Of a stretch of 64,000 bases of DNA, positions 26,067 to 42,996 are shown piece after piece. Position numbers and translations under genes: made by a program. Source of the stretch: Limosilactobacillus sp. WILCCON 0051 (GTDB lineage: Bacteria > Bacillota > Bacilli > Lactobacillales > Lactobacillaceae); the NCBI RefSeq assembly GCF_039955095.1, contig NZ_CP154878.1, forward strand, positions 1,550,001 to 1,614,000, in the 5' to 3' direction. Each line of letters opens with the position of its first letter. Positions within the stretch are counted from its first letter, which is position 1. Under the pieces are notes generated by a model. It worked only from the letters and a program-made list of their open reading frames with translations, was not told the DNA's origin and searched no databases.

Positions 26067-26210
26067 TTTATCGTTTTATAACTATCTTTAGAAAATTGAC
26101 GAACTGTTTTGAATATGATACAAGAGGTGGAGGGTCAAAATCTCTCATTTAAAGGATGTTATACACTTCTTGGCAAGGTTATATCAATCGGTTATTACAA
26201 CACTCATATG
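26067..26210. repeat. SRRP upstream region, copy 1 of a ~150-bp imperfect duplication
   Basis: This stretch directly before the SRRP gene matches 26657-26810 imperfectly in the same orientation. Conserved blocks are TCGTTWTATAACYATCTT, AAAATTGAC, ATATGATACAA, and TTATTAC-TCA-T-TG further on. It probably contains the adhesin promoter and upstream control region. I could not settle on a -35/-10 pair on the minus strand. Confidence 0.6.
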
Positions 26211-26386
26211 CATAGAAATACTTATTATATAGCGCTTTATTATTGAATCGAGTTTCTTTAGCCAACTAAGTGTTTACCAAAATTAGCCAAAATCGTTTTA
26301 AATTTGGTCATAATCAATCAAATGTCCTCTGCTAATTTAATCTTTCAATCGATATTTAATTCGCCCATCTATATAAAATCAGCAAA

Positions 26387-26429
26387 AAAAACGTTGCCTT
26401 ATTGGAACTCCATCCATAGGCAACGTTTT
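26387..26429 (-). terminator. Hairpin terminator between the SRRP gene and its decayed leader copy
   Basis: AAAACGTTGCCT and AGGCAACGTTTT form a 12-bp stem, followed on the minus strand by a run of eight T. It would stop transcription entering from the upstream remnant toward SRRP. Confidence 0.8.
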
Positions 26430-26534
26430 CTTCATATACTATATTTGCGGTCCAATAATCGTCATGCAAAAGATTGAAGCTGGATCAGCGGACTCAAATC
26501 TGATATAGAGATTCATCCGCTCACCATGACATCT

Positions 26535-26810
26535 TTCATTCTTTTAACCAGATCGACTTAACCAGGCATCCAAAAACCAAAGCAGCTTGCCATGATGGAT
26601 TTTCCAGCTTAACTTGTCTTCTTCAATTCAACATCGTTTTTATTGTTATTTGGAAGTTATCGTTATATAACCATCTTCGCGAAAATTGACATAAGCTTAA
26701 CTATATGATACAAAAAGTGTTGATTGAGATCTCGAGGTAAACCCATCTTACACAACCCTTAGCGAGGTTAAATAAACAGATTATTACGTCATTAATGTGT
26801 ACAAAATAAA
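26535..26810 (-). pseudogene. Decayed second copy of an SRRP promoter and signal-peptide start
   Basis: Read leftward, 26810-26657 repeats the SRRP upstream region and is followed at about 26612-26560 by codons for WKIHHGKLLWFLDAW, which resembles the KxYKxGKxW signal motif and the corresponding SRRP segment [12 protein letters not shown] similarity to the SRRP start is clear in CAAGTTAAGCT and CATCATGG-type blocks, but no start codon is in frame and stops follow. I read it as the remnant of a second SRR adhesin gene or a duplicated 5' end. The similarity was found by eye; an alignment is needed to fix the borders. Confidence 0.45.
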
Positions 26811-27004
26811 GAATTGGTGTCTTTTTGTAACAACCATTCATTTCTAGAGTTTACCAGTTGATCAATTAAAGATACATTTAGTTTATTAAATAAAATTTTC
26901 ATCAAGATAAGTCGTGATTTCAATTAACTTTTCACTTGATATTTACACAAGCATACGTTTAAAATAAATTTCAGTTTAGATGTATCTGAAAGGATGAATC
27001 GATT

Positions 27005-27688
27005 ATGACCGATATTCGCATTATCAATACTAAGAACCGTATTCGCATGGGGATGATCAATGCGCTGAAAGAAAAGCCATTGAATGAAGTTACTACGAAA
27101 GACATCATCGAAGCAGCTGAAGTCAGTCGTAAAACTTTCTACACCTACTACAACGACCAAAACGATCTGCTCTTCGAAATCGAAAATGCCATGATCTCAG
27201 ATTTGGTTGAAGGCATGAAGAAAGATCGGGAAGCAGTTACTCAGCTCGACGACACTGCTGACCAGGTTGAAATTGCCAAGCTGGCCGACCAAGCCTTTGT
27301 CGAAACCATCAAGGCCTGCGCTAAGCACCGCGAAGTCACCCGGATCCTGCTTTCTGCCAATGGTGACATTAACTTCCTTTCTAAAATCAAAAAGGCCGTT
27401 TATAAAGAACTCTTGGCACGGGCACCTAAACTGGTCGTAGCCAACGACCCATCCGTACAGAATCTCAAAAAACAGTTGCCTGTCCGGATTCCGCTTGACT
27501 ACCTGTTTGAGATCTATGTCGGCTTGATGGTCAATATTATTCAACACTGGCTGACTTCTGAAGACCCAATCTCACAGCGTCAGGTTCGTGGAATTATGGG
27601 AGCCGCTCAAATTTTGTCACCACTGCAGCTGCTTGCCTTTTCCGACCTGCCGGAAGATTTGAACGATATTGAAGACTACCAATTCTAA
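27005..27688 (+). CDS. TetR/AcrR-family transcriptional regulator
   Basis: The protein has 227 residues. The N-terminal helix-turn-helix is typical of TetR: IRMGMINALKEKPLNEVTTKDIIEAAEVSRKTFYTYY, quoted here as two parts, with the recognition helix VSRKTFYTYYND at about residues 40-51. The C-terminal part (about 80-220) is an all-helical ligand-binding/dimerisation domain like that of DhaS-type regulators. ATG follows GAAAGGA. It stands alone, with its own terminator and 980 bp upstream that separate it from the SRRP gene. Its target cannot be read from sequence; the divergent SRRP promoter is one possibility. Confidence 0.85.
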   Translation: MTDIRIINTKNRIRMGMINALKEKPLNEVTTKDIIEAAEVSRKTFYTYYNDQNDLLFEIENAMISDLVEGMKKDREAVTQLDDTADQVEIAKLADQAFVETIKACAKHREVTRILLSANGDINFLSKIKKAVYKELLARAPKLVVANDPSVQNLKKQLPVRIPLDYLFEIYVGLMVNIIQHWLTSEDPISQRQVRGIMGAAQILSPLQLLAFSDLPEDLNDIEDYQF

Positions 27689-27696
27689 ACATACAT

Positions 27697-27731
27697 AAAA
27701 GAGCAGCCGCTTAATTGCAGCTGCTCTTTTT
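27697..27731 (+). terminator. Terminator of the TetR gene
   Basis: AAAAGAGCAGC and GCTGCTCTTTT form an 11-bp stem followed by T5, nine bases after the stop codon. Confidence 0.85.
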
Positions 27732-27954
27732 GTTGAGTTAACTGATCGTCGGCTAAATCGTTTAACTAGGCTAAATTTATCCAAATTGCGTCAATTAAGC
27801 TTTTGAGATTCCCTGTTTTACCAAATCAACTTCCGAAACTCAGTGTATCTAACATATACTGTCTAAACTGTCTCTTCTCATTTATAATAAGAACTAATGT
27901 AAGGCTTTTACATTAAACACTTAAGAAGGTGATAAGGCAATAACTGATGTGTAT

Positions 27955-28635
27955 TCCTGTTTCCTTTTTAAAACTTTTTCAAGACTATTGACTGATTGGC
28001 GACCCAGCCGACAATGCTTATCCGCCTGCTGAAGCTCAATAGTGTCCAGCTTGGTTTCCCATGATGATCGAACCCAGCTCCCAAACGGTTTGATTAAAGT
28101 GATTGATTAGAAATCGTCGAGACTCCCATAAGTATTTTCCCTTTCTCTAATCTTCTCCTCAAGCTGGCCAGATTTCACTTGTTATACTCCCGCAATTATG
28201 AAGTCTGCTTCGGTTGATACCATGGAAATATCGACTTCCTATAACCAGTTATTTAACTTTCTTCCGCAACTGGCATTAACCGAATTTAGTTGAGATTCAC
28301 AGGCTCGCTTTGCCGATACCTTTCAAAGCAAGACGAAACGTACCTCTAATTTTCGCCTTGTTTTAAATCCTCATGTTGAAATGATTGGTGCCACAGTTAG
28401 TTTCGTTTACCAATGAGGGCATGATTGGTTGGTTAAGCCTGCTTAGACATCGATCTCCTCTTAGTCTATACCTTTCGATTTTTATAGTGAATTAACTATG
28501 AGCGGCTTATCTCTTTGTTAAGGTCGAGAATCATTTTAATCAATCAGGTTCCGTATCCAGCTTGATTGAGCACCTCGTTGAAACACTTCTCGCTTTAGCA
28601 ATCAGACGCAATCAAAAATCAGTCAACAATAGTAA
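27955..28635 (+). pseudogene. Degenerate coding region, function unclear
   Basis: A ribosome-binding-like AGAAGGTGAT is followed by codons MCIPVSFLKLFQDY, a stop, then protein-like stretches in shifting frames (LIGDPADNAYPPAEAQ; NQLFNFLPQLALTEF; NHFNQSGSVSSLIEHLV), several stops and a terminator at 28640. The stretches look like a decayed regulator or enzyme, but I cannot name the family. A translated search of the whole interval would settle it. Confidence 0.35.
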
Positions 28636-28639
28636 TATT

Positions 28640-28679
28640 AAAAGGCTGCCAGCTTTCCTGTTGCCTGGCAGTCTTTTTG
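28640..28679 (+). terminator. Hairpin terminator closing the degenerate region
   Basis: AAAAGGCTGCCAG and CTGGCAGTCTTTTT form a stem with a short loop and a T-tail on the plus strand, consistent with a former gene ending here. Confidence 0.7.
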
Positions 28680-28816
28680 TTTACCCATTTTTAAGCTGCT
28701 GACCGATATTGCAGCAAGTCACCTGGTGTTACGGCTTAGTTGATGGGCCTGTTCGCTTACTCAGTATGTTTGAATATCAAAGGTAACGAGATTTATGAAC
28801 TTAGCCGTGTGCGCGG

Positions 28817-29072
28817 AAAACTCGACAATATAACTAGCGTAAAATCTGATGACTCGTTCATCGACTCGGCTCTGCCCTACGAGAAAAGTCAACAACTAGC
28901 GTGAAAGCTAATCGTACATTTATTGACTCGGCTCTGTCCTATGAGAAAAGTCAACAACTAGCGTGAAAGCTAATCGTACATTTATTGACTTGGCTCTGCC
29001 CTATGAGAAAAGTCAACAACTAGCGTGAAAGCTAATCGTACATTTATCGACTCGACTCTGCTCATGGAATAA
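28817..29072. repeat. 62-bp tandem repeat, about four units
   Basis: Units starting GAGAAAAGTCAACAACTAGC recur at 28881, 28943 and 29005 with a spacing of exactly 62 bp, preceded by a degenerate unit from about 28817. The three central units differ by only one or two bases each. No reading frame or known motif is evident. Confidence 0.9.
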
Positions 29073-29279
29073 TCCAACGACTGACAGCAAGCAACTCCCC
29101 TATCCGCCAATAACGATAATACTAAATCATTTTATTGAGCCATCTGAAATCAGTTCACGGAAATAATAAACCCATCACTGGTTCAAATCATCTGTCTGAA
29201 ATCTAGTCTAGCAGTCATAATTTAGCTGCTAGCCGGAAATGTCGTTAATTTACTTCACCTGGTAAATCAGCAACACGCA

Positions 29280-29629
29280 TTATGCAAAAAATCCTGCATA
29301 ATGACATATGACAAAAATATCATTACCTACTTTTTCTAAAAATCGATGTATAAGTAGGTAAAAATCAATGTATATCGAGTTAGGGATACCTAACATTACC
29401 TACTATTTGATGAAAAGCGCTCAATAGTAGGTAATTCACAAAGTCGATCTAGCCCAATCAACTCCTATCAGCTCTTAAATATGCATCTTTACCTACTATT
29501 CGGAAAAAAATCGCTTCAAGTAGGTAAAGTTAAGCAAATTGAATATACACTTACCTACTTCTGGCTCAAAATCAGCGAATAGTAGGTAATTGCATAGGGC
29601 TTAGCTGGTCAAAGCCTGATTTTCTTCAC
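29280..29629 (+). repeat. Multi-hairpin intergenic element, copy A1
   Basis: About 350 bp in fixed order: a TTATGCA...TGCATAA hairpin; H1 29323-29361 (TTACCTACTT/AAGTAGGTAA); GTTAGG/CCTAAC at 29379-29394; H2 29396-29434; a linker containing CACAAAGTCGRTCTRGCCCAAT; H3 29488-29528; a linker AGTTAAGCAAATTGAATATA; H4 29551-29589; and an end near TTCTTCAC. The same order and the same linkers occur at 35840-36179 (inverted) and 39447-39795. No open reading frame runs through it. Confidence 0.9.
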
Positions 29630-29824
29630 TAAGTTAGCCGTTTTGCGATGCTCACTAACTCATTTTCATCATTCCCAGGCAAGCCGCCACTATTCCTGCC
29701 AAATTACTCCCGGACTTCTCACGCCCATTTCCGACCACTACTCTAGTGATCTCACTTTCCAAGACTCGAACCGGTTAAATTAACCATCAGTCGGCAGTAC
29801 GATAAAAAGCCTCGTTCCCATCCG

Positions 29825-29870
29825 TAAAAAATCGCCCGCCCTGCCTTTGACAGCTAGAGCGCGCGATTAA
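29825..29870 (-). terminator. Probable terminator of the SPFH gene
   Basis: On the minus strand AATCGCGCGC and GCGGGCGATT pair around a ~19-base loop and are followed by T6, 21 bases after the SPFH stop. Confidence 0.6.
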
Positions 29871-29890
29871 GCATTCTATGATAAATTCAG

Positions 29891-30751
29891 TTATTTTCCA
29901 GTATTAATTACCGGCTGTGTGCCGCGTTCACTAATGATTGCTACCATTATATTGTTAATGACCTGTAAACGCTGCTCATCAGTCAGATTTAAATCAGTTT
30001 CCTTGGCCAGCCGCTCCATGGCATCTTCCGTGATTGAGACGGCACCTTCAACGATAATCTTACGTGCTGACAGAATCGCCGCGGACTGTTGTCTTTGCAG
30101 CATCGCACTGGCAATTTCCGTGGCATATGCCAAGTGCGTCAGCCGCGTTTCCAAAATCTGCACGCCGGCCACGTTAAGCCGTTCCTGCAGTTCTTGTGTC
30201 AAGCGGTCAGAAACTTCAGTCGGATTCCCACGCAGCGTCAGCTTATCCTGCTCATCAAATGTGTCATACGGATATTCGCTGGCAACGTGACGCACGGCAG
30301 ACTCGCTTTGGATCTCAACAAATTCCTCATAGTCATCAACGTTGAACAGAGCCTGCGCCGTATCAACAACTTTAAAGACTACTACGGCCGCAATTTCAAC
30401 CGGGTTCCCTTTTGAGTCATTAACCTTCAAAATTTCAGAATTAAAATTGCGCACTCGCAGGGAAATGCTCTCCTTGTCCGTTAACGGCACCGTCATAAAC
30501 AGGCCGGCATCGCGAATCGTGCCAATATAGTTACCGAAAAAAGTCAGTACTTTAGCTTCATTAGGCTGTACGATCGTCAATGCTGAAGCGCACAGTGCAG
30601 CCAGCAAAATCAAAACGACCCCAACTGCCAGTTCTCCATGCTGCTGATCAGCGTAACCGCGATAGCCCAGCCATACTCCTAAAACCGCGACCGCAATGGC
30701 AACGATCAATCCCAGATAGCCATTGACGTGAAATGCCTTTTTCTCTTGCAT
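29891..30751 (-). CDS. SPFH/band-7 domain membrane protein
   Basis: The protein has 286 residues if started at the ATG at 30751, chosen because AAGAAGGG lies six bases upstream; the frame is open further upstream but without a ribosome binding site. Two hydrophobic segments (about residues 12-35 and 43-63) are followed by a prohibitin-homology domain at about 65-265. Its landmarks are NEAKVLTFFGNYIGTIR, VEIAAVVVFKVVDTAQALF and the RLTHLAYATEIASAMLQRQQ-type coiled-coil end, quoted as shortened. SPFH proteins form oligomeric membrane scaffolds and often regulate proteases or lipid domains. It is monocistronic, so no partner can be inferred. Confidence 0.88.
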   Translation of the reverse strand: MQEKKAFHVNGYLGLIVAIAVAVLGVWLGYRGYADQQHGELAVGVVLILLAALCASALTIVQPNEAKVLTFFGNYIGTIRDAGLFMTVPLTDKESISLRVRNFNSEILKVNDSKGNPVEIAAVVVFKVVDTAQALFNVDDYEEFVEIQSESAVRHVASEYPYDTFDEQDKLTLRGNPTEVSDRLTQELQERLNVAGVQILETRLTHLAYATEIASAMLQRQQSAAILSARKIIVEGAVSITEDAMERLAKETDLNLTDEQRLQVINNIMVAIISERGTQPVINTGK

Positions 30752-30888
30752 CGTCATCCCTTCTTTCAGATCGATTCTAGAACTATTATAACCTAGAAAG
30801 GATTTCCAACAAAATAGCAAACACAACGCTGGATGATTGCTTCCCTTATTGCCGGCTGCTACATGGTCAGTCATTTCTGGCCAAAAAG

Positions 30889-30926
30889 AAAAACCATCTT
30901 TATGAGTTGCAGCTCTAAGATGGTGT
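30889..30926 (-). terminator. Hairpin with T-rich tail upstream of the SPFH gene
   Basis: On the minus strand ACCATCTT and AAGATGGT pair around an AGCTGCAACT core, with TTTTTCTTTTT after the stem. No annotated gene feeds into it; it may end an unrecognised short transcript. Confidence 0.5.
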
Positions 30927-30982
30927 TGTACATTCTTAATTCAGTTTAAAGTGTAAGCACTGTCGATTTTCAAGGACATTCG

Positions 30983-31015
30983 GGCTAACGTGTTCCCTCA
31001 CGTTAGCCTTTTTGT
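30983..31015 (+). terminator. Orphan terminator on the plus strand
   Basis: GGCTAACGTG and CACGTTAGCC form a perfect 10-bp stem with a 6-base loop and T6. There is no recognised plus-strand gene before it in the 30752-31267 gap; a small RNA or a lost gene is possible. Confidence 0.7.
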
Positions 31016-31058
31016 TTACGCCATAATTATAGCTGATTTCAATCGGCATTGCAATTTG

Positions 31059-31090
31059 AAAACGCCTTGCCAGACCAGACAAGGCGTTTT
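31059..31090 (-). terminator. Probable terminator of glpK
   Basis: AAAACGCCTTG and CAAGGCGTTTT form an 11-bp stem about 180 bp after the glpK stop. It would work on either strand but is the only strong hairpin after glpK. Confidence 0.55.
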
Positions 31091-31267
31091 ACCAATTTTT
31101 ATTTTACCGCTAAGAATAATCAACGTGCCGCCGTTTAAGCAAATCGCTGTCCCAAAAAGCAGCATTCTTCTTAGGGCGCAGCTGAATTATTCCTAGGACC
31201 TACCCAATGCTTTATTCTTGCGTGGAACTAAGGTCATGCGGGATGTCAGCGGACACAGCTTAACGCT

Positions 31268-32791
<1,524 letters not shown>

Positions 32792-32944
32792 TTATGAGTA
32801 TTGCGCGGTTTGCCTGGGTGCTGCCCATTCGTAAGCTTCCCCAGCATGCCGGCTATTCCCAAGCGTTCGCAAAATTACTAAGCTGTCCAGCTGTCTGGAT
32901 ATGCTGATTGGAGACTCCCCCAACTCAATTTCAGCACGCTTGAG

Positions 32945-32985
32945 GACGCAAAAAAACCGCTGGCGACCCGAGGCCATTCAGCGGC
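32945..32985 (-). terminator. Terminator of the tautomerase gene
   Basis: On the minus strand GCCGCTG and CAGCGG pair around an internal loop and are followed by T7, a few bases after the stop at 32993. The remaining ~170 bp to glpK holds no gene I can support. Confidence 0.75.
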
Positions 32986-32992
32986 TAATCGT

Positions 32993-33178
32993 TTACTTAT
33001 CGCTGACCATCTTGCCAGCCACACTGTAGCGATCCTTGCGCATTTCGTTTAAAACGATGTGGATTCGTTCTTCAGGAACATTGGCATCCTTAGAAATAGC
33101 TGCCGTAACGTCCTTAACCAGGGCCTTTAATTGTTCTTCAGTGCGACCTTCCAACAGATCAATGTGTACCAATGGCAT
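32993..33178 (-). CDS. 4-oxalocrotonate tautomerase family protein
   Basis: The protein has 61 residues, the usual size for the family. The start is placed at the ATG giving MPLVHIDLLEGR, because removal of Met exposes the catalytic Pro-1 and AAAGGAGAG lies just upstream; the longer open frame would bury the proline. The RTEEQLKALVKDVTAAI helix and the Arg-rich HIVLNEMRKDRYS strand follow the 4-OT pattern. 4-OT proteins catalyse keto-enol tautomerisation; the physiological substrate in lactobacilli is unknown. Monocistronic with its own terminator. Confidence 0.92.
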   Translation of the reverse strand: MPLVHIDLLEGRTEEQLKALVKDVTAAISKDANVPEERIHIVLNEMRKDRYSVAGKMVSDK

Positions 33179-33434
33179 GAAAAATCTCTCCTTTAATCCA
33201 ATAACTTGGGGCAATCATACCACAATTAACACTGGTTTGGCAACGCTTTACATAGTCTTAAAAACTACTTAATTAATTTTCAAAACTATTCTTTAATGAC
33301 GTAACTGCCACCTGTCAATAATTTGCCAGCCGGCGTTCAACAGCTAATTTTCTTAAAGATTGCCGCTCAGTCACTCCCGCCCCTTTACTCAAAAACCGCT
33401 CAACCAGCCTCAGCCAGTCGAACGGTTCTTCTAT

Positions 33435-33584
33435 TTAATGCTTCTTGATCAACAGCCATGCCGCCCCAGCTGCCAGCATGACGCCAGCCATTTTGTGAAG
33501 GTCAGTCTTAACGCCTTTAACCAGGGGCTTTTTGCTTTCCAGAACTACTTGAAAATGTTCGCCGTCATATAATGTCTTTTTCAT
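33435..33584 (-). CDS. Small single-span membrane protein (49 aa), function unknown
   Basis: ATG at 33582-33584 follows AAAAAGGAAGTG with good spacing, and the 49-codon frame ends at TAA. The N-terminal half is charged (MKKTLYDGEHFQ...), then comes one hydrophobic segment MAGVMLAAGAAWLLI and a KKH end. This looks like a genuine small membrane peptide, but I recognise no family. Confidence 0.6.
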   Translation of the reverse strand: MKKTLYDGEHFQVVLESKKPLVKGVKTDLHKMAGVMLAAGAAWLLIKKH

Positions 33585-33800
33585 GATCGACACTTCCTTT
33601 TTCAATTGGCTTTTGATTTATGCTTTGCCTTTATTTTACTCCGCATCGCAAGCCATGACGAGCAACAATTGCGCCAAACCTTCTTATTGATAGGCCAAAT
33701 GACACAATCTTCCATCTTCAAATATCCACTTATTGCTGATCAATCTAAGCAGACTTTTTATTGACCGACTGACCAGATTTTAACATCAAACCGTTTGATC

Positions 33801-35207
33801 CTAAAACTGTGCAAACAGCTGGTCCATGTCAAGGTTGGCACTGTTAATGTATTTTTGGTTGGTAAACTCGCGAATACCTTCTGCGCCCAGCTCGCGACCA
33901 TAGCCAGATTCTTTGATCCCGCCAAATGGAATTGCTGGTGAGGCCATCGTTGGCTGATTGATTGAAATTGCGCCGGCTTCAATTCCCGCTGCTACTCGAG
34001 CTGCATCGACTACGTTTTCACTGTAGACTGAGCCGCCCAGACCAAATGACGTACCATTGGCCAGTTTCAAAGCTTCTTTTTCATCGTTCCAGCTAAAGAT
34101 CATCATTACCGGCCCAAAGATTTCCTGCTGGAAGATTGGATTGTCAGCTGTCACGTCAAGCAGCAGGGTTGGCCGAACAAAAGCACTGTCTGCCGGAACT
34201 TCAGGACCAATCTCAACTGCCTTGGCACCATTAGCAACGGCCAGTTCAATCTGAGCCTTGACCTTGTTGGCAGCCTTCATCGAACTCAGAGGGCCAAAAG
34301 TCGTCGTTTGATCAAGCGGATCGCCGGCTTTCAGCTGAGCTGCCGCCTGCGTTACTCCGCCAATGAAAGCATCATAAAGTGATTCATGCACAAACATCCG
34401 CTTGTCGCTGGCACAGACCTGTCCTGAAATCGTCAGTCGGCCAAGCATCGCACCTTGAACGGCTTTTTGCAGGTCGGCATCCGGCAGCACGATCATGGCA
34501 TCCGAGCCACCCAGTTCCATCACATGCTTCTTCAATGCCCGGCCGGAATTAGAAGCAACTCCACGACCAACCTCAGTACTGCCAGTGATCGTTACGCCAC
34601 AAATACGTTCGTCTTCAATCAAGCGGTCAGACTGTTCGTAGCTGATAAACAGATTTTGGAAGCATCCTTCAGGCAGGCCAGCGTCTTTTAACAGCTGTTC
34701 CATGGCCAGAGCACTTTGCGGACAGTTGGAGGCATGCTTGAGAACGACCACGTTGCCGGCCATCAGTTGAGCTGCCGTTGGACGTGTCATCTGGAAAAAT
34801 GGAACGTTCCATGGCTCGATTTCATAAATGATTCCCAGTGGCTGATAAATGCCGACCGCGTTGCCAGCCATCTTGTCATCTGTTTTGATAAAGTGAGGCT
34901 TCAGCAGTTCCTTTGCATTATCAGCATAGTAGTTCATGATGTCGGCACAGAGATCATTTTCCCAAACAGCGATCTGAAGCGGCTTGCCAGTTTCAATCGT
35001 GTTGATGGCACCATACTTCTCCCGGCGTTCCGTCATCAGTTCAGCGGCCCGCTTTAAAACCGCTGCCCGTTCTTCAAATGAAGTTTTGCTCCACTTTTCA
35101 TATGCAGACTGCGCTTTTTGCAATTTTGCTTCCAATTGAGCGTCCGTTAAGTCGTCAAACGTCTTCAGTACCTCGCCAGTATATGGGTTCGTCGTTTTGT
35201 AAGTCAT
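33801..35207 (-). CDS. gabD: NAD(P)-dependent aldehyde dehydrogenase, succinate-semialdehyde type
   Basis: The protein has 468 residues. It oxidises an aldehyde, probably succinate semialdehyde or a related short-chain one, to the acid with NAD(P). ALDH landmarks: the PWNVPFFQMTRP segment near 125, the Rossmann-loop motif GSTEVGRGVASN around 210, general-base Glu in MELGGSDAMIV near 229, and catalytic Cys in SGQVCASDKR near 263. The C-terminal EIFGPVMM is also present. ATG follows AAGAAGGAC. It is isolated, with no gabT beside it. Substrate preference is inferred from family similarity. Confidence 0.9.
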   Translation of the reverse strand: MTYKTTNPYTGEVLKTFDDLTDAQLEAKLQKAQSAYEKWSKTSFEERAAVLKRAAELMTERREKYGAINTIETGKPLQIAVWENDLCADIMNYYADNAKELLKPHFIKTDDKMAGNAVGIYQPLGIIYEIEPWNVPFFQMTRPTAAQLMAGNVVVLKHASNCPQSALAMEQLLKDAGLPEGCFQNLFISYEQSDRLIEDERICGVTITGSTEVGRGVASNSGRALKKHVMELGGSDAMIVLPDADLQKAVQGAMLGRLTISGQVCASDKRMFVHESLYDAFIGGVTQAAAQLKAGDPLDQTTTFGPLSSMKAANKVKAQIELAVANGAKAVEIGPEVPADSAFVRPTLLLDVTADNPIFQQEIFGPVMMIFSWNDEKEALKLANGTSFGLGGSVYSENVVDAARVAAGIEAGAISINQPTMASPAIPFGGIKESGYGRELGAEGIREFTNQKYINSANLDMDQLFAQF

Positions 35208-35393
35208 ATTAATGTCCTTCTTTCTTTTAAATCATGCTATTAGCTATTCGATGTCATTATCTTAACGGCTACAGCATGAATTTAGAACATCATTTAGCGT
35301 CATTGTTTTATCAATTCGTGCCAAAGATATAACCTAAACGTACCCTTGCAACTAGATATCTGCTATCCTGGCCCCCAACATCTATGTCCGGGC

Positions 35394-35640
35394 CCTACCA
35401 CATTACAGCAACAGCACGATTGCAGGCTCGATATATCGCCAAAGCATCCATCCCATGTCATGTCACATTACAGCAACGGTATGATTGCCGGCTTGATTTA
35501 TCGCCAAAGCATCCAGGTCATACCATACTACATTACTGCCACGATATGATTGCCGGCACGGTCTGTCAGCCAAAACATTCATCTCCCGCCATGTCACATT
35601 ACAGCAATGGTATGATTGCCGGCTTGATTTATCAGCATCC
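35394..35640. repeat. 65-66-bp tandem repeat, about four units
   Basis: Units starting CATTAC recur at 35401, 35466, 35531 and 35597. They share AGCAACGGTATGATTGCCGG and CTTGATTTATCGCCAAAGC blocks, with the third unit most diverged. Reading frames cross the array, but none has a ribosome binding site. It is unrelated in sequence to the 62-bp array at 28817. The 150 bp on its right contain a second, looser direct repeat (GTTAAGTC-GTA-GCTTAAA-GACAGAT). Confidence 0.88.
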
Positions 35641-35839
35641 ATGCCCGCCCCATTGCTGCCATCGACATCATCGACATTTACATTCAAATTCGTTAACGCT
35701 GCGAGTACTCATACCTAGATCAGTTAAGTCAGTATGCTTAAACGACAGATTCGATTTCCTAGCAGTGCGTCGACCGTAGCGATTTTGTGTTAAGTCTGTA
35801 CGCTTAAATGACAGATGCGACTGCTGGATCGCCAGGCTT

Positions 35840-36179
35840 GTGAAGAATATCTGGTTTAGACTGGCTGTGGGCCGCTAGTTTACCTACTTCGCGCGGATTT
35901 TTAAGCAAAAGTAGGTAAGTGAATATTCGATTTGCTTAACTTTACCTACTTATAGCTCGTTTTTCCGGAATAGTAGGTAAAATTGCATATTTTGGAGCTG
36001 ATTGGGTCAGACCGACTTTGTGATTTACCTACTATTATCCGTTTTTTATCAAATAGTAGGTAATGTTAGGGATCCCTAACTCAATATACATTAATTTTTA
36101 CCTACTTATACATCGATTTTTGCAAAAAGTAGGTAATGATGATTTTGTCATATGTTTTATGCATGTTTTTTTGCATAAT
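35840..36179 (-). repeat. Multi-hairpin intergenic element, copy A2 (inverted)
   Basis: This is the same element as A1 in reverse orientation: the TTATGCA hairpin, H1, GTTAGG/CCTAAC, H2, linker, H3, linker, H4 and TTCTTCAC end. Stem arms stay complementary where bases differ from A1. The linkers with CACAAAGTCGGTCTGACCCA and AGTTAAGCAAATCGAATATT are conserved. Confidence 0.9.
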
Positions 36180-36682
36180 TCGTGCTGAGAACATTTGCAG
36201 ACGCTTTTTCCGACACTGATTCATTGATCACACGTCACCATATCCATTGACCAAGCGTTTATGACCGGTTCCGCGCTGAATGCCGTCGTAAGCTTGCTTA
36301 TGCTATTCTCGATCATTGACTCATCCGAACCCATCACTGTATTTATAACTGGGTTACTGATATTTTTTGTTGCGCCAGTCGCATTCCAGCAGCCTCTTCA
36401 TCCGCTCCAAAGCCGCCATTATGTCAATACATTCACACTTGGCGATTCGTTAGATAAACAAAAACATATTTAATTTATTAAATCACTTATTTGTTTAGTT
36501 TAGCTAACAAACGTTGATATATTGGCATTTGTAAGCTATGACGAAATTATCATATCTAATTATTAATAATTGTTTACCACTGCTTGCAGCAATGCGAATC
36601 GTTTCTATAAAAGTGATTTTCTCCTTGACCTAGTTATCACATGAATGATACTTTTTACCAAACGTAAGGGGATGATTACACC
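36180..36682 (+). other. Intergenic region before the adhesin gene; possible remnant of a membrane protein and a promoter
   Basis: A 70-codon frame at 36261-36473 encodes two hydrophobic stretches (ALNAVVSLLMLFSII and PITVFITGLLIFFVAPVAF) but has no ribosome binding site; I do not call it a gene. The right part is AT-rich; TTGACC near 36626 and an extended TGATAC-type box 15 bases on form a tentative promoter for the adhesin. Confidence 0.35.
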
Positions 36683-39235
36683 ATGCTTAGTAAAAACAAT
36701 CACAATCTGAAAATCAAACAAGCCAGCGATCGCCAATTGCGGTTTTCACTGCGCAAATTCGGTACCGGGATTGCCTCGGTAGCCATCGCCAGCCTGTTCT
36801 TTATCGGCAGCAGTGCCACGACGGTCCACGCCGATACCAGTGATGGATCCACGGCGACGACTGTCTTGACAGCCAATTCAACGGATCAATCAACTACTGC
36901 TTCCGACGCTTTAACTCAGTCAGCAGCCGCCTCTGATTCCGCTGCTCAGTCAACCACTGCTGACAATGCCAAGGATCAAGCGTCAACCGCGACTGATTCT
37001 GCCAACACCGCGACGAGCACGAACAGTTCGACTGCTCAAAGCACTGAGGCTGATCAAACGATTATCAACTCCAAGCAAAACAGTGCCCAGGCGCCTGCAA
37101 AGGATAACATTCAGCACGGCATCAACATTACGGCCAACAACCAGACGACTGGATATAACGGCAGCTCAATTTTAAATGCCAATCAATCCGATGGTACTTT
37201 CGATGTCAACACGGTCGTTACCAACAATAATTCTGACAGCCGTAAAGTTGAAGAAATCGTCCTGTTGCCAACGTTTACCGCCAACAACTCAACCGACGTC
37301 AACATGATCAAGCCAGTTATCGATGCTGACAAGATTGGCAGCGGTATTCAATTTACCTCCTCTACCGGCTCCATGCCAACCGATTTGGAGGTCTACTATG
37401 CCATCACGGCCGGCGACTTTGAAACGCTGGATGTGTTAATGCAGAATGCTGATTTCTCCTGGGATCAAGTCGTTGAGATTCAATTCGTTGCTACTCTGCA
37501 GGCTGGTCAATCGCTGACGGCCACCGTTCCAATGAAGATTGCCAACCTGGAACAAATGAAAAAGCAGCTGGCAGCACTGGCGGATGGTACTGCCGACAAG
37601 GCGCTCGAACAAGACCTGTCCGCACGCAATATGACGTTTGATGAATATTTCTACTACTGGGATGCAGACGGCAATTTCTATTCTGATGACATTCATTCGC
37701 TAAACATGCGGCTGGCCGTACCAGCAACCGATACGATCAGCGCCATCCAAAACATCAATGGCAGCTACCACGCCGTTATCAAAAATGCCAACGGTCGCTA
37801 CCAAGACGCGCCAGCTGAGATTCAAGCAGCCATGCCTAACGTTTCACCAAGCGACGTTACCGTAACCAACTTTACCAATGGCAGCGCGGAAGATACTTTG
37901 TTTACCGATGGCTACTTTAGAATCAATGCCATTAATATCTTTAACGCGGTCAAGGATCTTGGCTATACGACCAATATTGCTCCCAACGGCCACGATCTTT
38001 GGCAGACTTACAACTACTTCTCTTTCGGCACGACTCATCCGGATGGTTCCGCAACCAAGCTGTATGTAGAAGTGCAGCCAGTCTTCTTGCTGCAGGACGT
38101 TACCTTGCCAAGCGGCAGCAGCTGGAATCAAGCGCTGAACCTGCAGCAGAATCCAAGCGTCAAGTTCACCAATCAATCCTCAATGACCGTTACCGAGCAA
38201 AAGACACTGGCCTACAGCACGACTGGGGGCGCCGGAACCTACCAAGTCGACACGTCCAATCTGCCGCTGGATTCTGATGGCAACTTAACCACGCCAGGTA
38301 TCTACAACGTTACCTACATCTACCAAATCAATGATCAAGATAGCGTAACGGCAACCGCGCAAGTTATCGTGCAGGCCGTCAAAACAATTACGCGGACGAT
38401 TCATTACGTCGATGGCGACAACAACAATCAAGCCGTCGCAGATGATGTCGTACAATCACTGACCTACTACGGAACGCCGACTGATGCCGCGGGAACTGAA
38501 TTTACCTGGCAAGCAGCTGCCGGTAATGAATTTGCCAGTGTTGACTCTCCCGTGGTTGCCAACATGACGCCGGACCTGACCACGGTAGCTGCCGCAGCGA
38601 CTGACGAAAACAGCGCCAATGCCGAAATCACAGTCGTCTACCACCATGACCTGACGACTGAAAACGTTGAAAAGACCGTACAGCGGACGATTCACTTTGT
38701 TGATGAACAAGGTAATCAGGTTGCCAATGATGTAACTCAAACCGTAACCTTGACCGGCACTAAGTCAACTGATCTGGTTACCGGCAACAGCACAACGGTT
38801 TGGAATCAAGGACAGTTTGCCAGTGTAGATGCGCCATCAGTAGCCAACATGACGCCTGAGATTGCCGTTATTGCTGCTGAAACGGTTGATGAAAACAGCA
38901 CGGATTCTGAAATCAATGTTGTCTATCATGCAACGCCGGCTGTTGATCCAGTTGACCCAACGACGCCTGAAACGCCGGCACCATCAACTCCTGATCAGCC
39001 AGCAACGCCTAACACGCCGGCAGCAACATCAGATCAGCCATCATCTGTTTTGAATACGCCGGCTGTTACAGTCACAGCTTCATCAATGAACAACCGCCAA
39101 AACACTACCAAAACCAGCCGAAAGACGCTGCCACAAACTGGCAATGAACAGACTGGTTTACTGGCTGCCTTAGGACTTGGCTTGTCCAGTCTGGCACTTT
39201 CCTTAACGGGAGCTTTCAAAAAACGTCATAACTAA
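36683..39235 (+). CDS. LPQTG-anchored surface adhesin with two mucus-binding (MucBP/Mub-type) repeats
   Basis: The protein has 850 residues. The N-terminus carries a YSIRK-like signal (RFSLRKFGTGIASVAIASLFF at about 21-40, shortened) with cleavage after VHA near residue 50. A Thr/Ser/Ala-rich stretch follows (50-140), then a large presumed beta-rich region (about 140-500). Two mucus-binding-type repeats follow at about 575-655 and 665-750, each with a RTIHYVDGDN/RTIHFVDEQGN opening and a NSTDSEINVVYH-type end. Then comes a Pro/Thr linker and LPQTGNEQTG at about 814, a hydrophobic helix and a KKRHN tail. It should be sortase-linked to the wall and bind mucus glycans. ATG follows AAGGGGATG. The gene is bracketed by inverted copies of the multi-hairpin element. 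Confidence 0.9.
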   Translation: MLSKNNHNLKIKQASDRQLRFSLRKFGTGIASVAIASLFFIGSSATTVHADTSDGSTATTVLTANSTDQSTTASDALTQSAAASDSAAQSTTADNAKDQASTATDSANTATSTNSSTAQSTEADQTIINSKQNSAQAPAKDNIQHGINITANNQTTGYNGSSILNANQSDGTFDVNTVVTNNNSDSRKVEEIVLLPTFTANNSTDVNMIKPVIDADKIGSGIQFTSSTGSMPTDLEVYYAITAGDFETLDVLMQNADFSWDQVVEIQFVATLQAGQSLTATVPMKIANLEQMKKQLAALADGTADKALEQDLSARNMTFDEYFYYWDADGNFYSDDIHSLNMRLAVPATDTISAIQNINGSYHAVIKNANGRYQDAPAEIQAAMPNVSPSDVTVTNFTNGSAEDTLFTDGYFRINAINIFNAVKDLGYTTNIAPNGHDLWQTYNYFSFGTTHPDGSATKLYVEVQPVFLLQDVTLPSGSSWNQALNLQQNPSVKFTNQSSMTVTEQKTLAYSTTGGAGTYQVDTSNLPLDSDGNLTTPGIYNVTYIYQINDQDSVTATAQVIVQAVKTITRTIHYVDGDNNNQAVADDVVQSLTYYGTPTDAAGTEFTWQAAAGNEFASVDSPVVANMTPDLTTVAAAATDENSANAEITVVYHHDLTTENVEKTVQRTIHFVDEQGNQVANDVTQTVTLTGTKSTDLVTGNSTTVWNQGQFASVDAPSVANMTPEIAVIAAETVDENSTDSEINVVYHATPAVDPVDPTTPETPAPSTPDQPATPNTPAATSDQPSSVLNTPAVTVTASSMNNRQNTTKTSRKTLPQTGNEQTGLLAALGLGLSSLALSLTGAFKKRHN

Positions 39236-39270
39236 TCTGCCTGCTTGTTGATCTAGCATGGACTCGTTTA

Positions 39271-39307
39271 AAACCTCATCGCGGAATTGCTCGTGGTGAG
39301 GTTTTTG
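39271..39307 (+). terminator. Terminator of the adhesin gene
   Basis: AACCTCATC and GTGAGGTTTTT pair around a ~17-base loop, 36 bases after the adhesin stop. Confidence 0.7.
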
Positions 39308-39315
39308 ATTTGATT

Positions 39316-39395
39316 GATGCAATCGTTCCTGGAAGCTTTAAGTAATGCCGCTTGTGATGCAATCGTTCCCGGAAGCCTTAAGTACTGCTGCTTAG
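39316..39395. repeat. 40-bp direct repeat, two units
   Basis: GATGCAATCGTTCCYGGAAG is present at 39316 and 39356 and continues with TTTAAGTA-TGC-GCTT in both. The pair lies between the adhesin terminator and element A3. Confidence 0.85.
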
Positions 39396-39446
39396 ATCAG
39401 GTTCGCAACAATGAGCGGCCGTTTTTGAACTGCTTAGTCGGGGCCG

Positions 39447-39795
39447 TTATGCAAAAAATCTTGCATAAAACATATGACGAAACTATCATTACCTACTTTT
39501 TACCAAAATCGATGTATAAGTAGGTAAAAGTTAGTGTATATTGAGTTTATATCGAGTTAGGGCTCCCTAACATTACCTACTATTTGATGAAAAAAGCGTA
39601 ATAGTAGGTAATTCACAAAGTCGGTCTGGCCCAATCAACCCTAAAATATGCATTATTACCTACGATTTGAAGAAAAGCCGTCAAAAGTAGGTAAAGTTGA
39701 TCCGTTCGAATATACAACTACCTACTTCTGACCTAAAATCGGCGAATAGTAGGTATCTGCAGGAATCAGTGGCTGTTCGTGCTGAATTTCTTCAC
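39447..39795 (+). repeat. Multi-hairpin intergenic element, copy A3
   Basis: This is the third copy in the same orientation as A1, with all hairpins and linkers present. H3 has one arm altered (TTACCTACGA). An extra GAGTTTATATC insertion lies before the GTTAGG/CCTAAC hairpin. The end near TTCTTCAC is again shared. From 39796 to the pnuC terminator I see nothing that can be called. Confidence 0.9.
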
Positions 39796-40154
39796 AATAT
39801 CAGTCGTTTAACGCCATAATCAGATAACTTTGACAATCGCACAATCAATTAAGCCTGCTTTAATCATTCCCAACTGGTTAAAACTGCCCGCATTGTACTG
39901 CCGATGCGTTCAAAGATAATCGCCTTAAAGAAGTAAATATTGGGAGTAAAACGCAACCGTACCTTGGATTCCACTTTATAATGGAAAAGATTGCAACTGT
40001 GCTCTGGATGATCATGCACTTACGATCAACTGGGTCACGTTCCCACATCATCCCTTAACACCGCTGAATCTAATTGACGATCACGGCACAAGCCAGCTGG
40101 AACCAAAAGCAATCCAAACGCCACCGTCAAGACTCAATCGGAAACTGCGCCAAT

Positions 40155-40188
40155 AAAAAACTGCCTTCAGATCGCTCTGAAAGCAGTT
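40155..40188 (-). terminator. Terminator of pnuC
   Basis: On the minus strand AACTGCTTTCAGA and TCTGAAGGCAGTT form a long stem followed by T6, 25 bases after the pnuC stop. Confidence 0.85.
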
Positions 40189-40212
40189 GGTGCCGATAAC
40201 ATCCGGCCTGAT

Positions 40213-40947
40213 TTATTCCATTTCCGTTAAACCAGCTTGACGACGGCCGCGATTAAACCATGGCGAAACCGTAAAAGCCAGAATGTCATTGACCACATAG
40301 ATCAAACTGTTAATTGCCATTGCCAGCGTAGCATCCCCTTGCGCAAAGGTCACGCCCCAAAGAATCAGCTGGAAGATCCCAGAAGCCAGCCACCAGTAGT
40401 ATTGGTTATTGTAGCGCATAAAGCACATGATCCCTGCAGTCAGACTGATGGCAAAACTGATGGCATCGATCCATGGCCGCGGATCATTAGTGAAACTGCA
40501 AATCAGGTAACCACTGATAGCGTAGACCAGCAGCGTACCAATAATGGCTACGATCCATTGTTTGGTTCCGAAACGGCGCAGATGATTTTTAGTGTCATCG
40601 TTCCAGCTGCGTACGGCAAAGATCACCGGCAGATCAAGCGTCAATACATAGGCAATCTGTTCAAAAATCGACAGGTAGTTCTTCGCTGCCAAACCCGCGT
40701 AGATAAAGCAGGCAGCCGAGATCAGCCCCAGCCAGCCATTAATCGCCTTGGTAGCATTGATGGCCAATACGCACAGCGTCCCCAAGATCGTGCCGATAAA
40801 CGTGATCAGCGTGACCGACGTAACCTTGCTGCTGATCAACAAAGCCAGCTGAAAGCCCAGGGCAAAGAAAAACAGCAGATAGTTCTGCATTGGCCACCCT
40901 TTCAGTTGATTGAACAGCCAGACAAAGTAGTTTTCATTACGTTCCAT
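40213..40947 (-). CDS. pnuC: PnuC-family nicotinamide riboside transporter
   Basis: The protein has 244 residues starting at the ATG at 40947, chosen because AAAAAGGAGAA precedes it; the frame is open upstream through the leader. It has about seven hydrophobic segments in the PnuC arrangement. Landmarks are the TKAINGWLGLISAACFIYAG segment, the WIVAIIGTLLVYAISGYL helix and the late RYNNQYYWWLASGIFQLILW motif, where aromatic residues line the substrate site in the family. It imports nicotinamide riboside for NAD synthesis, driven by intracellular phosphorylation. It is monocistronic with a long structured leader, which suggests control by NAD or a related metabolite. Vitamin specificity (NR versus thiamine/riboflavin homologues) is inferred. 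Confidence 0.88.
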   Translation of the reverse strand: MERNENYFVWLFNQLKGWPMQNYLLFFFALGFQLALLISSKVTSVTLITFIGTILGTLCVLAINATKAINGWLGLISAACFIYAGLAAKNYLSIFEQIAYVLTLDLPVIFAVRSWNDDTKNHLRRFGTKQWIVAIIGTLLVYAISGYLICSFTNDPRPWIDAISFAISLTAGIMCFMRYNNQYYWWLASGIFQLILWGVTFAQGDATLAMAINSLIYVVNDILAFTVSPWFNRGRRQAGLTEME

Positions 40948-41115
40948 GAATCGATTCTCCTTTTTCTCAGTAGCTTTTACCACGCGAACTGCGCGGCTGC
41001 TTATCCGTGGGGCGACCCCCACCTCGGTTGACAAGAAGTGCTCGGTTTCTCGCCAGCTGTCTTATTTTACGGGCCCATAAAATAAAACAAATCAGCCGTT
41101 TTGGCTTTGAGCAAC
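40948..41115 (-). ncRNA. Structured 5' leader of pnuC, candidate riboswitch
   Basis: The ~165-base leader contains, near its 3' end (40978-41034), two adjacent GC-rich hairpins: GTGGGG-GTCG-CCCCAC flanked by CCG/CGG, and CCGCG-CAGTT-CGCGTGG. A GTCAAC motif precedes the first and GGATAAG follows it. pnuC genes of Lactobacillales can carry the pnuC/NAD-II riboswitch; I cannot confirm the consensus by eye. A covariance-model search would decide. Confidence 0.35.
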
Positions 41116-41121
41116 TTGTAT

Positions 41122-41151
41122 ATCCTACCAAAAGATCGATTCACTTGCCAA
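41122..41151 (-). promoter_or_regulatory. Putative pnuC promoter
   Basis: On the minus strand TTGGCA, an 18-base spacer and TAGGAT, about 170 bases before the pnuC start. The further upstream stretch to 41352 holds no gene. Confidence 0.45.
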
Positions 41152-41352
41152 TGCAAATTTCTTTATCTATCTTAAACAAAATCACGCTAAAGTATCTATT
41201 TAACCGTAACGACTGCGCTTACCAAAAATAAATAAAAAATTTTTGACTAGCCGTTTTGCGTCGTTTGATTAAAGGATCGATAAGGCGTCCAGCAATCTAG
41301 ACCTCCGCTTTTATTAATCAGCCAAATTCGAAGGGGCGTTCATTGCTGCAAT

Positions 41353-42867
41353 CTAGTTCATCCGAAACTGGAATTGACTGACGGAAGCATTCGGTAATTC
41401 GAGCGCGAAAACATCAGCTGCAAATGGCGCTGGTTCTTTAGTACGCTTTCGGACACGATCTGGTGCAGCTGCCGAATTATATTCATTAGGCGAGGCCGCG
41501 CTGAGTTCTTCGTGACGCGTCATCGTGGCTAGAGCGCCCAATCTTAAAATCAGCTGATGGGATTTGGCATAGTCTTTATTAATGATGGTTACCGTCAATT
41601 GGCCCTGCTTGATGGTTGCCATGACATCAAGTTTTTCACTGTTCATTGCCGGCAGTTGAATCACTCGCCCATTTTGATGCCGCTGATACATGACAAAGAC
41701 ATCATAGTTTGGCGTCATGATCGTCTTTTCATCTTCAGTCAAAAACAATGCATTCAGCACGTTGACCGACTGTGCTACCGTAGCCATTTTCACCAGATCA
41801 CAGTGACGCTGCAAGACATTGAGCGTAATCGCAGTTGCCACTGCATCCCGCATTGTTACCTGCTGTTTTAATGCCGGTTTGGCGGTAAAAGCATCTCGGT
41901 GCCAGACTCCCCATTCACCGACGATCAGTTCCAGTTTGCTCAGACGCTGATCCATACTTGACTCCGGCGTTGGCATTTTCGCAAGCCCTTGATTAATCAG
42001 TTCTCCTTGTTGAACGATTACTTCTTCAATCTCACCAGCCCCTTTAACTACTCGATCCCAGCTCTGCTTATCAAATTCAGTTGGTGTATCGTCGTTAGCC
42101 AGATTCCAATTATAGTAATGCATGTCGAGGCCTTGAATCGATGGCTGTCGATACCTTGCCAGCTCTTTCAACAGATCGCGCGTCCAGTTCACGCGTTCGA
42201 TCGGTTTGTTGCCATCGGGTCCGGAAGCAATTCGATAGATCTGTTCCTTATCAAAGAGATCATGCTTAAAGCTCGGCATAGCGGTCGCAAACTCACGATA
42301 CTTGGCTGCATAGGCCGTGGGAGTCATAAAGCCGCCGCCTGCCCAGACCTCATTGCCAATCCCCCAGTACTTAACGTGATAAGGTGCCGGATGTCCATTT
42401 TGAGCACGCAGTCTTGCCAGATCGGTGCCCGACTCTCGATTGCAGTACTCCATCCAGTCTTTCATTTCCTGAACCGTGCCGCTCATCAGATTGATATTGA
42501 TCCACGGTTCTGCACCAACCAGTTCGCAAAATTCCATAAACTCGTCCGTGCCGAATTGATGATCATCCCTGGTAAACGTACCAAAATTTTCATTAAAGGT
42601 GATCGGCCGCTGCTTGCGTGGACCAATTCCATCCCGCCAATGATATGAGTCTGCATAACAGCCGCCTGGCCAGCGAATTACTGCTGGGTGCAGCGCCTGC
42701 ATCTTTTCGACGATCGTCTTGCGAAAGCCATGAATATTGGGAATCTTTGAATCCGGACCAACCCAGATTCCTTGATCAATACATTCACCCAAAAACTCGA
42801 TAAACTGCCCGTGTAGCTTAGGGTCAACGATTCCCAGCGTTTGATCGATATCAATTGATAGTTCCAT
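41353..42867 (-). CDS. Alpha-L-arabinofuranosidase, GH51
   Basis: The protein has 504 residues, standard for intracellular GH51 enzymes (AbfA type). It releases terminal arabinofuranose from arabino-oligosaccharides with retention. Landmarks: HGQFIEFLGECIDQGIW at about 19-35, VIRWPGGCYADSYHWRDGIG at 63-82, acid/base Glu in YWGIGNEVWAGGG near residue 173, and nucleophile Glu in LIVGEWGVWHRDA near 317. No signal peptide, so it acts on imported oligosaccharides. It is divergent from an AraC-type regulator and has a cre site upstream, which fits induction by arabinosides and glucose repression. No transporter gene is adjacent. Confidence 0.95.
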   Translation of the reverse strand: MELSIDIDQTLGIVDPKLHGQFIEFLGECIDQGIWVGPDSKIPNIHGFRKTIVEKMQALHPAVIRWPGGCYADSYHWRDGIGPRKQRPITFNENFGTFTRDDHQFGTDEFMEFCELVGAEPWININLMSGTVQEMKDWMEYCNRESGTDLARLRAQNGHPAPYHVKYWGIGNEVWAGGGFMTPTAYAAKYREFATAMPSFKHDLFDKEQIYRIASGPDGNKPIERVNWTRDLLKELARYRQPSIQGLDMHYYNWNLANDDTPTEFDKQSWDRVVKGAGEIEEVIVQQGELINQGLAKMPTPESSMDQRLSKLELIVGEWGVWHRDAFTAKPALKQQVTMRDAVATAITLNVLQRHCDLVKMATVAQSVNVLNALFLTEDEKTIMTPNYDVFVMYQRHQNGRVIQLPAMNSEKLDVMATIKQGQLTVTIINKDYAKSHQLILRLGALATMTRHEELSAASPNEYNSAAAPDRVRKRTKEPAPFAADVFALELPNASVSQFQFRMN

Positions 42868-42913
42868 AAGCGACTTACCTACCCTTTCTAAGTTGTCAAA
42901 AAATGCTTGCTTT

Positions 42914-42927
42914 TGATAACGGTTTCA
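42914..42927. promoter_or_regulatory. cre site (CcpA binding) between GH51 and araC-type genes
   Basis: TGATAACGGTTTCA matches the catabolite-responsive-element consensus TGWAANCGNTNWCA with one mismatch. It lies about 47 bp before the GH51 start, a position suited to repression by CcpA. Confidence 0.65.
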
Positions 42928-42996
42928 GCATAAGCTATCAATATGGTTTTTAATATCAAAAAACAACGCAAGGTATCAAAAAAGTAAGGTGATCTT

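Follow-up and report, generated by a model that had tools for sequence, protein, structure and literature searches.

MITEs are short, non-coding and dispersed multi-copy elements, which carry terminal inverted repeats and are accompanied by a target duplication. A modular type of intergenic repeat is represented by BOX of Streptococcus pneumoniae, which consists of boxA-boxB(n)-boxC modules. It is predicted to fold as RNA, whereby the number of its internal units varies between genomes (PMC3049150). REP/PU and BIME sequences are palindromic intergenic repeats that serve as insertion sites for the IS3-family elements IS1397, ISKpn1, and ISPsy8 (PMC1525189). From a lactobacillus, which is L. johnsonii according to our reading of the source tables, the stem-loop repeat family Lac-1 has been described (PMC2267715).

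Here, we analyzed an intergenic repeat of about 350 bp, in the following referred to as the array, from Limosilactobacillus sp. WILCCON 0051 (the host). The array is alike to MITEs in being short, non-coding, multi-copy, and dispersed; it differs from them in that no parent transposon was seen and in that its internal sites are conserved after insertion. BOX and the array are both dispersed modular intergenic repeats with repeated internal units and both are over-represented between convergent genes. Four units in 46 of 47 arrays of the host, a unit spacing that follows the helix, and uncompensated arm changes set the array apart from BOX (PMC3049150). With REP/PU and BIME the array has in common that an IS3-family element inserts specifically into a palindromic intergenic repeat; in contrast to the systems of PMC1525189, the target comprises 350 bp with four units, the insertions are located in spacers and not inside a palindromic unit, and no REP-associated tyrosine transposase (RAYT) was recognized. 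Lac-1 is likewise a lactobacillus repeat family found via stem-loops (PMC2267715), whereas our search of 396 family genomes detected arrays in the L. mucosae group only. Overall, the array resembles BOX in its modularity and REP as an insertion sequence target, minus the defining tag and stem of REP.

Each Array Consists of Four Units and Accessory Motifs in a Fixed Order

The window, i.e., the whole stretch of 64,000 nucleotides that was analyzed (positions 1,550,001 to 1,614,000 of contig NZ_CP154878.1), harbors three copies of the element. The first-pass annotation had placed them at 29280-29629, 35840-36179 (inverted), and 39447-39795, and all three are present there, each being an array with four 37-bp units (Table 1). 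The unit has the sequence TACCTAC-N23-GTAGGTA with an invariant central AA. Scanning the window for this pattern with up to three mismatches yielded 13 matches, namely the 12 exact units of the three copies and one three-mismatch match at 48335, compared to a mean of 0.5 and a maximum of 3 matches in 100 shuffled versions of the window at the same threshold. In the list of open reading frames no gene belonging to the element was seen in the window copies, which agrees with the lack of coding capacity noted before.

Table 1. Positions of the three arrays and of their parts in the window.
Feature	Position	Strand	Basis
Array 1, 5' TTATGCA palindrome to 3' CTTCACTAA motif	29280..29632	+	sequence reading, unit pattern scan
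Array 1, 5' palindrome TTATGCA-N8-TGCATAA (two TATRCA-type sites)	29280..29301	+	
Array 1, unit 1 (37 bp)	29324..29360	+	unit pattern scan
Array 1, GTTAGG/CCTAAC palindrome, unit 1-2 spacer	29379..29394	+	
Array 1, unit 2	29397..29433	+	unit pattern scan
Array 1, TTCACAAAGTCGATCTAGCCCAATCA motif, unit 2-3 spacer	29435..29460	+	
Array 1, unit 3	29490..29526	+	unit pattern scan
Array 1, unit 4	29552..29588	+	unit pattern scan
Array 2 (inverted)	35837..36178	-	sequence reading, unit pattern scan
Array 2, 5' palindrome	36157..36178	-	sequence reading
Array 2, unit 1	36099..36135	-	unit pattern scan
Array 2, unit 2	36026..36062	-	unit pattern scan
Array 2, unit 3	35943..35979	-	unit pattern scan
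Array 2, unit 4	35881..35917	-	unit pattern scan
Array 3	39447..39797	+	sequence reading, unit pattern scan
Array 3, 5' palindrome	39447..39468	+	sequence reading
Array 3, unit 1	39490..39526	+	unit pattern scan
Array 3, unit 2 (preceding spacer exceeds the usual length by 11 bp, about one turn)	39574..39610	+	unit pattern scan
Array 3, unit 3	39657..39693	+	unit pattern scan
Array 3, unit 4	39719..39755	+	unit pattern scan

The first half of the array starts with the TTATGCA/TGCATAA palindrome, which is followed by unit 1, a spacer with TGTATA and the GTTAGG/CCTAAC palindrome, and unit 2. The latter palindrome had been assigned to a position after the four units and actually sits between units 1 and 2. 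The second half continues from unit 2 with a TTCACAAAGTCGGTCTG-like motif, a TATRCA site, unit 3, a spacer with a further TATRCA site, and unit 4, whereby CTTCACAAA ends the array approximately 35 bp past unit 4. Motif counts were carried out with 41 uninterrupted arrays of the host genome, omitting six arrays that bear an insertion sequence. TATRCA/TGYATA occurs in five fixed segments, each of them present in 36-41 of the 41 arrays, at about 39 times the frequency in the flanks. With up to four substitutions allowed, the first 17 bases of the TTCACAAAGTCGATCTAGCCCAATCA motif are present in 37 of the 41 arrays, and the TTCACAAAG motif was found at its middle place in 37 and at its terminal place in 29 of them. 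The 3' motif was detected at a distance of 24-44 bp in 35 of 45 arrays, namely at 34-35 bp except for one case of 24 and one of 44 bp; the tally also includes a false value of 97 bp from one array, in which the fourth unit was missed, and nine arrays without a match. In six arrays (L004, L012-L014, L022, and L025) a weak common sequence is visible by eye in the approximately 60-90 bp that precede the TTATGCA palindrome, which includes an inverted relative of CTTCACAAAG. Due to this weak upstream similarity in some copies the borders are not sharp and the true element may exceed 350 bp.

At Least 47 Arrays Are Dispersed in the Host Chromosome

The host chromosome is a single contig of 2,356,337 bases with a dnaA-like gene at its start (by eye) and contains at least 47 arrays dispersed in both orientations, 45 of which came from the first searches and two of which were added later. 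Since only the best 40 of 69, 71, and 75 candidates were scored in the host-genome similarity searches, 47 is a minimum. With one arm mismatch allowed, the genome holds 185 units in total (reversed pattern: 0), which leaves little room for further intact arrays. Four units are present in 46 of the 47 arrays, the exception being L047 with two units and an insertion sequence, and a one-unit remnant is located near 169.8 kb. Copies within the host genome are 75-85% alike, and one orthologous pair with a relative is 98% alike.

Further copies thus occur both in the host genome and in relatives, whereby the family is narrow. When 50 genomes of the genus were searched at a tolerance of one arm mismatch, 185 units were found in the host, 47 in L. 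mucosae DSM 13345, where most arrays have lost units, and 2 in Lactobacillus sp. MRS-253-APC-2B, where remnants are left; two other genomes hold one unit match each. Single matches represent chance, because the reversed pattern gives 0-3 per genome. Hence, the family exceeds chance in 3 of the 50 genomes, and in two of these the set is reduced or made up of remnants. A stricter pattern matched in 8 of 396 family genomes, which comprise the three of the L. mucosae group, four in which the match is a common, unrelated sequence of 33 bp, and one in which it is a simple palindrome, so that no array was found outside the L. mucosae group in this set. The 33-bp sequence, TTACCTACT-N16-AGTAGGTA, is identical in G092, G151, G276, and G386 (loci L051, L052, L053, L058, and L062) from two other genera; it is apparently unrelated to the arrays and perhaps part of another mobile element. 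A pattern search of genome contigs also gave one match in a Cytophagaceae MAG. No description of the element was recognized in the literature searched, which was largely without subscription journals, and the earlier statement that no named family matches held in the Rfam, plasmid, phage, and literature searches made. The unit arm may resemble the enterococcal TAGTARRR iterons; a literature search on this likeness gave nothing useful.

Unit Arms Are Conserved at Orthologous Places

In 176 host units, the arms (7 + 7 bases) depart from the consensus at 9 of 2464 positions and AA is present at unit positions 18-19 in all 176, whereas the middles are far more variable, being partly conserved beside the arms and around the A-tract and near random at positions 13-15 and 21-26. 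This set consists of 37-bp units only, with two 36-bp units and the two later-found arrays absent from it; one of these arrays has another arm departure, which is common to its DSM 13345 relative. None of the nine departing arm pairs is compensated.

In the genome of DSM 13345, 23 array places were found, 18 of which are orthologous to host arrays by their flanks and one more by its units. When 29 orthologous units were matched by their middles, 0 of 406 arm positions had changed in the host lineage and 5 of 406 in DSM 13345, compared to differences at 36 of 551 middle positions (arms vs. middle, p = 3e-5). The probability of zero arm changes in the host is p = 5e-6 if the flanks diverge by 6% in all and p = 0.001 if they diverge by 3.3%; DSM 13345 had more arm changes than the host lineage, but the difference is not significant (p = 0.06). 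From this test we omitted the other MRS-253-APC-2B row and four unit matches that retained fewer than 11 of the 14 arm bases, which are junctions or one-base shifts (three from DSM 13345 and one from MRS-253-APC-2B). Six well-aligned orthologous pairs showed differences at 5 of 301 arm positions, 44 of 459 middle positions, and 743 of 12,480 flank positions. The cruder comparison of all 18 pairs including misaligned deletion junctions yielded 20 of 578, 97 of 854, and 3376 of 41,324 differences, respectively, whereby the arm differences arise partly from misalignment at the deletions. The absence of arm changes in the host, set against the differences in the middles, means that the arms are kept in their present places, at least in the host. 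In DSM 13345 the number of units per place ranges from 0 to 4, and the losses join equivalent arms where they were read. As few as 5 of the 23 places still have four units, and the arrays are thus dispensable in this strain; away from contig ends it is 4 of 18, with five places near contig ends, one of them with four units, set aside.

Unit Spacing Is Close to Whole Turns of the DNA Helix

The usual start-to-start spacings of the units are 73 bp (units 1-2), 83 bp (units 2-3), and 62 bp (units 3-4). Among the 41 uninterrupted arrays, the first spacing is 73 bp in 38 (others 72, 83, and 84 bp), the second is 83 bp in 32 and 93 bp in seven (others 82 and 72 bp), and the third is 62 bp in 31, 61 or 63 bp in six, and 72 or 73 bp in four. 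All changes beyond 1 bp amount to 10 or 11 bp (variants of +10/+11 or -11), which is about one helical turn. A period scan from 5 to 25 bp with the same arrays gave the best fit at 10.45 bp with a vector strength of 0.974 (0.946 at 10.0 and 0.933 at 11.0 bp); the 13 distinct spacings alone yielded about 0.93 near 10.4-10.5 bp and 0.90 at 10.0 and 11.0 bp. The best-fitting period corresponds to about one turn of B-DNA. The additional 11 bp of array 3 arose by tandem duplication, and given this origin and the small number of independent spacing changes, slippage could contribute. Helical phasing of the units is therefore strongly indicated, yet short of conclusive.

An IS3-Family Element Inserts Into the Arrays

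An IS3-family element of 1544 bp is present in six near-identical full copies among the best 40 of 71 candidates scored, all within arrays, whereby the six interrupted arrays lie outside the window. As the arrays make up approximately 0.7% of the genome, finding six of six copies in arrays is far above chance (p about 1e-13 under uniform insertion). Outside the arrays one fragment of 472 bp with 90% identity was detected. Five of the six copies are flanked by a 3-bp target duplication, and all seven insertions, including a related copy in MRS-253-APC-2B, are located 12-16 bp outside the nearest arm. Array sequence flanks the MRS-253-APC-2B copy on just one side, and in the inspected flanks of a second fragment from this strain no array sequence was found. 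At 23 loci of relatives of the insertion sequence in other species no array arms were present within 90 bases beyond the recognized end (both ends in a few cases), and array targeting is thus not a trait of the whole insertion sequence group. A plasmid search with the insertion sequence gave nothing. The IS3-interrupted two-unit array L047 (host 1484535-1486240) is directly adjoined by Y1 transposase fragments and a 444-aa tnpB-like ORF.

Arrays Are Over-Represented Between Convergent Genes

Gene context was deduced from simple ORF length, in one convergent case from the window ORFs. From 45 arrays, 21 are located between convergent, 19 between co-directional, and 3 between divergent genes, with 2 unassigned. 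In control spaces of at least 100 bp from 400 kb of the host chromosome, 16 of 132 are convergent (p = 4e-6). Regarding the replication fork, with the origin placed at the dnaA-like gene of base 1, no significant orientation bias was observed (29 of 47, p = 0.14). The largest gap extends from 136030 to 761912 of the host chromosome, i.e., over 626 kb without a full array, and holds the one-unit remnant; random placement produced a gap of this size in about 5 of 100,000 cases (simulation of 20,000).

The only three tandem repeats found in window positions 26100-43000 (28863-29061, 35399-35633, and 39315-39393) are each no more than about 250 bp away from an array, and throughout the host a tandem repeat with a period of at least 15 lies within 400 bp of 13 of 45 arrays. 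Tandem repeats occur in 5 of 14 array-bearing spaces vs. 5 of 132 others; the excess is not significant when limited to spaces of at least 400 bp (5 of 14 vs. 3 of 27, p = 0.10). These data are suggestive of local duplication beside the arrays, weakly so against long intergenic controls. Next to the array region of the window there is a serine-rich repeat ORF of 4960 aa on the minus strand (11142-26024), and a 374-aa repeat ORF (21856-22980) is located on the strand opposite to it.

Discussion

Judged from its sequence, the element is probably a double-stranded multi-site protein-binding array, of which about 47 copies form an intergenic interspersed repeat and whose arms are kept by selection. 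This elaborates a suggestion of the first-pass annotation, which had listed an array of protein-binding sites with TACCTAC half-sites among several options; helical phasing, uncompensated arm conservation, and conservation at orthologous places favor it over a structured RNA. From these features we infer protein binding, DNA bending, a single joint particle, and any role in the host. A putative DNA-binding protein would recognize TACCTAC, whereby a unit would offer two half-sites in inverted orientation, which are separated by approximately 30 bp, or roughly three helical turns, and enclose an A-tract that may ease bending. Four units near whole turns apart would bring the bound proteins to the same side of the DNA and assemble them into one nucleoprotein particle, and the TATRCA/TGYATA and TTCACAAAG sites at their fixed places would probably bind additional proteins. 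The host would use these particles most likely as chromosome-organizing or insulating sites, mainly between convergent genes, with selection keeping the arms, and the IS3-family element would land on the array. A convergent bias has also been reported for repeats that are read as parasitic (PMC3049150).

It could also be that the array is a non-autonomous transposable element of a MITE/BOX-like kind, in which the units would be sites for a transposase or accessory protein that builds a synaptic complex and the autonomous source would be lost or located elsewhere. Arm conservation would then reflect that spreading was confined to lines with good arms. We consider this reading unlikely, though a serious contender. 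The many dispersed copies in both orientations and their lower likeness within the genome than between orthologs are in line with it, as are the convergent bias and the variation of unit number from four in nearly all host arrays to 0-4 in DSM 13345, by losses that join equivalent arms in the way boxB number varies in BOX (PMC3049150). On the other hand, no autonomous relative occurs among the array matches listed, and neither a clean empty site nor a target duplication was seen where examined. At the window region both DSM 13345 and MRS-253-APC-2B were inspected without a clean empty site, whereby both relatives differ from the host by more than the array itself, so that borders and target duplication are unreadable there. 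Moreover, after insertion the arms have remained conserved at orthologous places, which mobility alone does not predict. A mobile origin of the arrays is likely in some form, and the non-autonomous one proposed by the annotation is possible; its specific version, a folded single strand mobilized by a transposase elsewhere, is unsupported, the best Y1 transposase being of the IS200/IS605 type.

That the array is a structured RNA, an RNA processing element, or a terminator made of hairpins is very unlikely. The arms are palindromic and the arrays are intergenic and rarely located between divergent genes (3 of 45), which would suit such an element, and in the 5' palindrome an inner-pair change is compensated in 2 of 44 arrays and the outermost base is re-paired in one more. 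However, 22 of 24 variants of this palindrome lose at least one pair, the unit arms are nearly invariant with all nine departures uncompensated, unit positions 9 and 29 vary seemingly independently of each other, and spacer changes keep the helical phase. The Rfam search for a known family, which the annotation had advised, brought none to its gathering score: four sub-threshold matches were obtained at E up to 1, all of them well short of their gathering scores, the best with E 0.005 and 20 bits compared to a gathering score of 242. The uncompensated unit-arm changes, together with this lack of a match at threshold, led us to reject the structured RNA raised by the annotation.

Mobile-element control regions can be composite, with several motif types in fixed order, and the recurrent motif types of the array recall such an arrangement. 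The arrays might accordingly represent what is left, in scattered form, of the control region of a phage, plasmid, or conjugative element, such as an attachment site, partition site, or operator array, recognized by a protein of that element. We regard this as highly improbable, since a window copy had no match among 72,556 plasmid and 50,697 phage records and the exact unit-1 pattern had none in IMG/VR viral contigs.

Least probable of all, and rejected, is a REP/BIME-type element whose single-stranded hairpins are acted upon by a RAYT, for which the GTAG in the right arm (GTAG-tagged REPs being a known superfamily; PMC3733652) and the IS3-family insertions (compare IS1397 and ISKpn1 in REPs; PMC1525189) would speak, whereas the GTAG lies inside the arm and not, as a GTAG/CGTC tag, at the foot of a short stem-loop, the 23-bp middle has no conserved short stem, and the Y1 transposase examined falls below the REP-transposase cut-off. 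The host has 10 Y1_Tnp matches, the best of which, the one that was typed, is of the IS200/IS605 type beside a TnpB gene. As to a transposase that co-occurs with the element, which the first-pass annotation had suggested to look for, Y1 genes are also found in six array-free genus members searched.

Returning to the double-stranded protein-binding array, we regard the arrays as a family of bacterial intergenic repeats that is new and ordered to an unusual degree, and for which a chromosome-organizing role is possible. More tentatively, the arrays may constitute an undescribed nucleoprotein system of about 47 same-face, A-tract-centered four-unit platforms, which a putative lineage-specific protein would occupy and which would organize or insulate the chromosome between convergent genes, with the IS3-family element having evolved to home to the assembled platform. 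In most cases, palindromic repeats between bacterial genes have been interpreted as parasites or RNA hairpins, whereas the phasing and the orthologous arms of the present family point to a double-stranded protein platform. A natural target-specific IS3-family element would allow to study how insertion is guided, and if the binding protein is found, the arrays would make it possible to test, in a lactic acid bacterium, whether a repeat family serves as chromosome architecture.
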